Below are positions 3,490 through 4,085 of a stretch of 64,000 bases of DNA, piece after piece (within the stretch, counting starts at the first letter, position 1; every line of letters begins with the position of its first letter). The notes under the pieces were generated by a model. That model did not search any database, was not told where the DNA came from, and worked only from the letters and a program-made list of their open reading frames with translations. Source of the stretch: Bugula neritina (taxonomy: Eukaryota > Bryozoa > Gymnolaemata > Cheilostomatida > Bugulidae); contig OZ037766.1 of assembly GCA_964035545.1 (NCBI GenBank), positions 24,016,767-24,080,766 of the forward strand, written 5' to 3'. The translations under genes were made by a program, and so were the position numbers.

Positions 3490-3491
3490 GT

Positions 3492-3538
3492 TCTGTGCTG
3501 ATGAGGGGACCAATCCCGAAACAGCTGCTGTCCACAGA
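3492..3538 (+). ncRNA. Type I hammerhead ribozyme, copy 1
   Basis: Stem I pairs tctgtg (3492-3497) with cacaga (3533-3538). The core is CTGATGA (3498-3504). Stem II is gggg/tccc closed by loop accaa, followed by GAAA. A three-base-pair stem III (cag/ctg) leads into the GTC cleavage triplet, so cleavage is predicted after 3532. All invariant hammerhead nucleotides are present. The left flank is (AT)n, so the outer part of stem I seen in the other copies is missing. Confidence 0.8.
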
Positions 3539-3762
3539 TTGAGATATTACGCTCTCATTTAATGCTCAGCAATGACATTAAATGATTGAGCACTCTCACC
3601 ATGGTCACAAACTCAAGCTGCTAGCATTTTGCAATGCTCGTGACTCCTAGGTGACCCCTAGAGTCACTTGAGCACTCTGGCTTGAGTTTACACACCTTTT
3701 AAATATGCTTTAGTAAAACTATAAGTTTTACTATTGCGAAGGTGTGGGCCTTGGTACTCTGT

Positions 3763-3809
3763 TCTGTGCTGATGAGGGGACAAATCCCGAAACAGCTGCT
3801 GTCCACAGA
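3763..3809 (+). ncRNA. Type I hammerhead ribozyme, copy 2
   Basis: Same architecture as copy 1 with stem II loop acaaa: stem I tctgtg/cacaga, core CTGATGA, GAAA and GTC, with cleavage predicted after 3803. Outside the inner stem I, ctc and gag can form a short outer helix across an internal loop, the arrangement natural type I hammerheads use for loop contacts. Confidence 0.83.
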
Positions 3810-4033
3810 TTGAGATATTACGCTCTCATTTAATGCTCAGCAATGACATTAAATGATTGAGCACTCTCACCATGGTCACAAACTCAAGCTGCTAGCATTT
3901 TGCAATGCTCGTGACTCCTAGGTGACCCCTAGAGTCACTTGAGCACTCTGGCTTGGGTTTACACACCTTTTAAATATGCTTTAGTAAAACTATAAGTTTT
4001 ACTATTGCGAAGGTGTGGGCCATGGTACTCTGT

Positions 4034-4080
4034 TCTGTGCTGATGAGGGGACAAATCCCGAAACAGCTGCTGTCCACAGA
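4034..4080 (+). ncRNA. Type I hammerhead ribozyme, copy 3
   Basis: Identical core to copy 2 (CTGATGA at 4040, GAAA, GTC), with cleavage predicted after 4074. Only a few bases of the next monomer follow before the (AT)n tract, so the array ends just beyond this ribozyme. Confidence 0.83.
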
Positions 4081-4085
4081 TTGAG

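Follow-up and report, generated by a model that had tools for sequence, protein, structure and literature searches.

We propose that the 271-bp tandem array described here, which lies in the window (the whole 64-kb stretch of DNA that was analysed), is a retrozyme: a non-autonomous element with a type I hammerhead ribozyme, whose RNA circle would be copied into (AT)n microsatellites by a Penelope-like enzyme. We assign this reading as a whole a probability of roughly 0.58. That the array belongs to a recently active element of the metazoan retrozyme type, present in hundreds of copies, appears well supported. Retrozymes of this kind are already known, and as far as sequences can tell, the evidence on their mode of copying is unusually clear in this genome. 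The insertion scars yield a specific and testable answer, comprising a start position, a target, a stop after one turn and, from the same genome, a candidate family of enzymes. If this answer is true, tandem arrays arise in a single step, and the location of these elements in AT microsatellites is explained.

The array and its hammerhead motifs

TRF and reading of the sequence reveal a layout of plain tandem units between two AT tracts (Table 1). In the 64-kb window, TRF places the array at 3489-4089, with a period of 271 bp, 2.2 copies and 99% matches, and the GTC sites are also spaced 271 bp apart, which bears out the period given in an earlier, sequence-only reading of this DNA. Two mismatches in 271 positions separate the two complete units, whose GC contents are 0.432 and 0.435.

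Table 1. Features of the array, in positions of the window
Position	Strand	Feature	Evidence
3360..3489		(AT)n microsatellite, 5' flank, part of the target tract; 130 bp	TRF: 65 copies, 100% matches
3490..3532	+	5'-truncated partial unit (unit positions ~229-271) with hammerhead copy 1, core 3498	core pattern, sequence
3533..3803	+	complete 271-bp unit 1, hammerhead copy 2 at its end, core 3769; predicted cleavage after 3803	TRF, core pattern
3804..4074	+	complete 271-bp unit 2, hammerhead copy 3 at its end, core 4040; predicted cleavage after 4074	TRF, core pattern, fold
4075..4089	+	element 3' end, CACAGATTGAG + ATAT = unit positions 1-15, putative start of reverse transcription	end common to 40 similarity-chosen loci; 438 junctions genome-wide
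4086..4124		(AT)n microsatellite, 3' flank, putative source of the DNA primer	TRF: 19.5 copies, 100% matches

A search of the window for the hammerhead core pattern, with up to three mismatches allowed, finds the cores at 3498, 3769 and 4040 with one, zero and zero mismatches, respectively, where 100 shuffles lead us to expect none. The cleavage triplets (GTC) begin at 3530, 3801 and 4072. For the copy at 3769, a hammerhead can be drawn with a stem I of 6 bp plus an outer CUC/GAG helix, a stem II of three GC pairs and one GU pair, and a stem III of 4 bp counted from A15.1-U16.1; cleavage is predicted after GUC. The motif is of type I and not type III, because its open helix is stem I. Copy 1 carries the loop II variant ACCAA, with cleavage predicted after 3532, and is devoid of the outer CUC/GAG helix because the AT tract cuts off its 5' stem-I strand. 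Of the three apparently intact type I hammerheads claimed by the sequence-only reading, the three cores and their 271-bp GTC spacing thus hold, while the first copy is short of its outer stem I.

Covariance models did not recognise the motif. In the window, no Rfam family reached its gathering score, and a search at an E-value threshold gave nothing above the cut-off, with the AT tract dominating the match list. The RAGATH-1 hammerhead model aligned in register but scored 19.1 bits against a cut-off of 56.3. Genome-wide, Hammerhead_1 (RF00163) had no match among the best 73 of 15,744 candidates, and control genomes gave none either. The sequence-only reading had proposed a covariance-model check and had counted the absence of a hit against its claim; at Rfam cut-offs, that check came out negative. 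In addition, the hammerhead fold of the copy at 3769 (-12.7 kcal/mol) lies 2.9 kcal/mol above the minimum free energy fold of the isolated motif (-15.6 kcal/mol), which is an alternative structure.

Both the missing gathering match and the alternative fold would be accounted for if the element were a repeat that moves without any ribozyme-dependent cycle and whose hammerhead-like motif is dead or due to chance. We consider this very improbable, since the core matches 360 times in the 216-Mb genome as opposed to eight times for the reversed pattern, and since 100 fetched loci contain 106 cores in which spacing and cleavage triplet are as expected. Moreover, a Penelope-like element (see below) is a second hammerhead-bearing element in the same genome. 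As a sequence motif, the hammerhead is therefore confirmed by its core, its pairings and the genome-wide excess of matches, not by Rfam. Among the matches listed (100 places), stem-loop II has two main forms, ACAAAUCCC and ACAAACCCC, and the difference between them converts a G-U pair to a G-C pair. The core had no match in viral contigs. Complete unit 2 is predicted to fold strongly as linear RNA (-104.6 kcal/mol, z -7.64), with none of 200 shuffles as stable, and the predicted circular fold of the unit RNA has -98.7 kcal/mol.

Elsewhere in the window, a 1318-aa open frame at 27797-31753 (+), apparently without stops, looks by eye like a Ty3-type polyprotein with reverse transcriptase, RNase H and integrase motifs. 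A 335-aa frame at 633-1640 (-) contains a 318-bp tandem duplication (TRF 935-1561) that gives rise to two cysteine-rich repeats. Further tandem arrays, at 16202-16329 and 59787-59932, have periods of 22 bp and 24/45 bp and no obvious function.

Dispersed copies with fixed 3' ends in AT tracts

The window corresponds to G000:C2:24016767-24080766. A similarity search of the genome with the unit gave 655 candidates, of which the best 40 were scored. Junctions between the element's 3' end and AT number 438 genome-wide (at most two mismatches, subfamily B included; reversed control 0), and internal unit-to-unit junctions number 114 (at most two mismatches; control 0). The 3' junctions are dispersed over many contigs, and insertion lengths range from 16 to 1085 bp. 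A 272-nt query aimed at subfamily B mostly returned places already known from the unit search. The copies diverge from the majority sequence by a median of 0.8%, and of the 77 copies of sufficient length, 9 match it exactly, so that activity must have been recent. Cross-comparison of the flanks in search of an empty insertion site returned shared repeats and no clean empty site.

These hundreds of dispersed copies, with their low divergence and polarised ends, bear out the earlier proposal of a retrozyme-like mobile element of this genome, and the finding that would have spoken against it, a lack of other monomer copies, clearly does not apply. Mobilisation in trans, put forward in the same reading, is well supported by the dispersed copies, the polarised ends and the presence of a candidate helper in the genome.

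In all 40 similarity-chosen loci, the 3' end lies at CACAGATTGAG or a near variant, at unit position 10-15, and is followed by an AT-type tract. This fixed end is 10-15 nt past the predicted ribozyme cleavage site. On the 3' side, 35 of the 40 loci satisfy a strict AT rule (at least six uninterrupted AT units within 4 nt), against a background of 486 of 63,960 window positions per strand (0.76%); the other five (L012, L028, L030, L037 and L043) have interrupted AT tracts. The 5' ends are variable: in 25 of 40 loci a strict AT tract lies no more than 6 nt away, and in the rest the flank ranges from impure AT to non-AT. Where AT repeats are present on both flanks, a target-site duplication is unreadable.

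The three bases preceding the AT tract in 103 insertions, 68 of which were selected for GAG, are GAG in 93, GAT in seven, AAG in two and GAA in one. In subfamily B, the junction reads GAGGTAT followed by AT in 92 exact copies (reversed control 0). This means that the template was copied from at least unit position 12, and that UAU (13-15) is the pairing still open to primer and template. The unit contains two other ATAT/TATA sites, which occur as 3' ends eight times versus five for the reversed pattern and zero times versus three. One exact match at another AT tetramer (C2:22503335) adjoins a retrozyme copy and is possibly a real, if rare, alternative 3' end.

The combination of a fixed 3' end with variable 5' ends suggests reverse transcription from a fixed start. 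The fixed and variable ends, the AT target and the continuity of the template across the cleavage site can be read from the copies themselves. Unit-length copies with ATAT on both sides, and the tandem structure, could alternatively point to spread at the DNA level, through small DNA circles or through unequal exchange between satellite-like repeats, with joining to AT by microhomology. The strong polarity at dispersed loci, with the 3' end fixed and the 5' end variable, argues against this, as does the fact that the other AT tetramers of the unit hardly serve as 3' ends. Spread of this kind is the reading to which we give the least credence.

The template of the copies

The copies begin 10-15 nt past the cleavage site and extend back across it; their template therefore cannot have been a cleaved linear monomer. 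In the mechanism that we propose, the hammerhead would cut transcripts every 271 nt, and the monomer would be closed into an RNA circle, in analogy to known retrozymes. The genome's own Penelope-like reverse transcriptase/endonuclease would nick an (AT)n microsatellite, and from the nicked strand synthesis would be primed near unit position 13-15, about 13 nt 3' of the cleavage site, a start that is read from the junctions. The polymerase would then circle the template and mostly stop before or just after one turn, with longer runs resulting in tandem arrays. The steps that we infer are the cleavage, the closing of the circle and which enzyme acts on it.

Insertion lengths come from the full set of 68 exact 3' junctions that were listed for contigs C1-C3 (100 listed, 438 counted), a set that is uninformative on the 3' side because AT and GAG were in its search pattern. 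Removal of L093, a 97.8% duplicate of L092, left 67 insertions; L058 (two junctions) and L075, maybe related short copies, were kept, with full-length counts unaffected. In these length-unselected insertions, 44 are shorter than 268 nt, 13 measure 268-294 nt and 10 are longer. Of the 23 that complete one turn, 13 stop within the next 27 nt, where 2.3 would be expected if stops were spread evenly over a further turn (binomial 4e-8, a rough figure). In 27-nt bins, the fraction of copies that stop is 0.57 (13/23) at 259-285 compared with 0.02-0.22 in the nine preceding bins; later bins hold at most 10 copies each, with rates of 0 to 0.5. A combined set of 101 insertions, from which L029 (a duplicate of L027) had also been removed (103 before both removals), has 30 of 57 one-turn stops, and leans to long copies because 34 of its loci were chosen by full-unit similarity. 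Lengths of two turns (542-544) are found in L022, L030 and L082, and a length of four turns (1085) in L042. The excess partly overlaps the ATAT at position 12, and microhomology with AT at the 5' junction may therefore have a share in it; 5' ends at the other two AT tetramers number three and zero, versus 12 at position 12.

Could a preferred length be inherited? Copies of equal length are 2.0% apart and others 2.1% (103 copies, duplicates L093 and L029 still included), and only three columns hold a variant common to at least five of the 103 copies. The phylogeny is thus star-like, and end points are seemingly not inherited. Inheritance of end points from master copies was set aside for this reason, equal-length copies being hardly closer kin.

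The arrays provide a second line of evidence. In 7 of 27 arrays longer than 300 bp, a private variant, defined as one that no other of the 103 insertions carries in its 3'-most unit, is present in all units that cover it. Three further arrays have all-unit variants that are common to one to three other insertions, and 17 have no variant in all units; 70 variants are confined to one unit. All-unit private variants fit repeated copying of one RNA unit, whereas the partly shared variants in L042 (three of four units) and L043 (two of three units) count against it, and gene conversion within arrays could contribute to the sharing. Taken together, the one-turn excess and the array-private variants suggest a circular template.

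A different route to the same ends would be target-primed copying of a linear, uncleaved read-through RNA, whose transcribed (AU)n tail pairs with (AT)n much as the poly(A) of LINEs and SINEs does. No circle would be needed, and the 271-nt peak would stem from an AT-flanked monomer locus copied at full length. This route accounts equally well for the fixed 3' end, the AT flanks and the 5' truncation, and for the peak if a single AT-flanked monomer is the source; unprocessed RNA was also the favoured substrate of a Penelope-like element (PLE) in vitro, according to PMC11167929. Yet working hammerheads would cut such an RNA about 11 nt from its tail, and the 10 of 67 length-unselected insertions longer than 294 nt are impossible from a monomer locus. 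Many masters of different length are hard to reconcile with equal-length copies that are hardly closer kin, and the variants common to the units of 7 of 27 arrays likewise speak against a linear template. We therefore regard copying of a linear RNA as unlikely, albeit a serious contender.

By a slight preference, we read the copies as traces left by target-primed reverse transcription on an RNA circle that the ribozyme had made. The PLE enzyme would tend to drop off at its own start after one turn and would otherwise produce arrays, and the retrozyme would amount to a SINE that depends on Penelope, targets microsatellites and imitates the start site of its helper.

Penelope-like elements as candidate helpers, and known systems

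A Penelope-type query sequence matched 60 places in the genome, 30 of which were read as loci. Locus L111 has a 734-residue stop-to-stop frame with RVT_1 (1.5e-10). Its C-terminus aligns (45% identity) with the protein P0031 where Pfam calls GIY-YIG (P0031 residues 494-574), so that reverse transcriptase and GIY-YIG endonuclease appear, via this alignment, to be joined in one frame. Pfam GIY-YIG had no match on L111 itself, and its genome-wide search hit one place, outside the Penelope-like matches. The protein collection contains 1072 relatives at E of at most 0.001, the best of which, P0001, is 97% identical and is an 809-aa open frame on a 2,613-base contig. With P0001 as reference, none of the 30 loci read (out of 60 matched) holds a complete stop-free frame: L127 spans residues 1-809 with one stop, and L111 spans 95-809 without stops.

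The plus strands of the 30 PLE loci contain 24 copies of a minimal hammerhead motif (CTGAAGA-TGGGTAC-AGTG-GTACCC-GAAA or near variants), three of which have the G of GAAA changed. By manual count, the motif lies about 60 nt before the first of two 3' end sites, which are about 27-31 nt apart. On both strands, 42 of 51 occurrences of the PLE 3' motif run into (AT)n; of the remaining nine, six continue into another copy, one is cut by the locus end and two meet interrupted AT-rich DNA. The second end site, AAAGATATA, resembles the GAGATAT or GAGGTAT of the retrozyme, a likeness that, with so short a motif, is only a lead. The same target in Penelope-like copies is, like the one-turn excess and the private variants common to the units of an array, a feature of the sequences as they stand.

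Mobilisation of the retrozyme by PLEs seems to us the best reading of these sequences. It is quite unlikely, in our estimate, that another AT-targeting reverse transcriptase than this Penelope-like element copied the circular RNA. The genome does contain further reverse transcriptases, such as the Ty3-like frame in the window recognised by eye, and the 30 Penelope-like loci offer no complete frame; but the Penelope-like copies share the target and have an internal end downstream of a hammerhead, and PLEs are named a strong candidate in the consulted text of PMC7229834.

Several loci illustrate how the two elements are arranged. Retrozyme and Penelope-like copies lie in or beside the same AT tract among L100, L121, L037, L099, L110 and L087; in L121 their 3' ends face each other, and L087 has a retrozyme pair placed 3'-to-3'. 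Many loci of the range L110-L139 have Penelope-like 3' ends on both strands, which suggests partial tandem or inverted arrangements, as for other PLEs. Further observations concern COX1 in the assembly. Translated with the invertebrate mitochondrial code, the COX1 of this genome best resembles conserved animal COX1, in keeping with an invertebrate. A COX1 match without TGA codons at G000:C17:12213-13505 (versus a copy with nine TGA codons on C295) suggests a possibly bacterial contig, derived from a symbiont or from contamination. A full-length COX1 match in a chromosome-size contig (G000:C6:11174072-11175412) is either a nuclear mitochondrial copy or an assembly join.

Published work provides the frame for these findings. 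Cervera and de la Pena 2020 (PMC7229834) define metazoan retrozymes, show circles and propose PLEs as helper; both the helper enzyme and the role of circles as templates for new copies are presented there as hypothesis. The words 'microsatellite', 'target site' and 'AT-rich' have no occurrence in the main text of that paper, which speaks of TSDs as 'target side duplications'. PMC8969392 states that retrozymes may rely on PLEs, PMC7761336 describes both retrozyme kinds as well as minimal hammerheads in PLEs, and PMC3846280 mentions a reported preference of Penelope elements for simple AT-rich targets. In the titles and abstract openings of the papers listed by literature searches, we found no account of (AT)n targeting by retrozymes or of a one-turn signature.

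As far as the consulted text of PMC7229834 goes, the element matches metazoan non-LTR retrozymes in its tandem organisation (partial to four units), its 271-nt monomer (within the reported 170-400 nt), its 43% GC, a type I hammerhead with short stem III, a strongly self-paired RNA and the presence of PLEs with minimal hammerheads in the same genome. It departs from the descriptions given there in the 3' end fixed in AT tracts and in the one-turn excess.

A close biochemical parallel is the Poseidon PLE of Anolis (PMC11167929), whose purified protein starts synthesis internally and cuts AT-rich DNA. Hammerhead mutants were without effect on its insertion in vitro, and unprocessed RNA was taken to be the main substrate, which speaks against the need for a circle in that PLE. 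The retrozyme shares with Poseidon the AT-rich target and an internal start downstream of a hammerhead, and the two start sites of Poseidon, with an optional 30-40 bp tail, have a counterpart in the paired end sites of the PLE described here, ~30 nt apart. Unlike Poseidon, the retrozyme is non-coding, starts about 13 nt past the cleavage site and targets a near-pure AT dinucleotide tract. Whereas Poseidon shows no homology between its start site and the DNA that it cuts, the retrozyme allows a short UAU pairing.

Plant LTR retrozymes (PMC4918200), as described in PMC7761336, are likewise hammerhead-processed and non-autonomous with a circular RNA intermediate, which in our element is a presumed one. 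They have type III hammerheads, LTRs, a PBS, a PPT and 4-bp TSDs, in contrast to the type I hammerhead and plain tandem structure seen here. Like SINEs, finally, the element is short, non-coding and would use the machinery of another element; unlike SINEs, it forms tandem multimers and carries a ribozyme.
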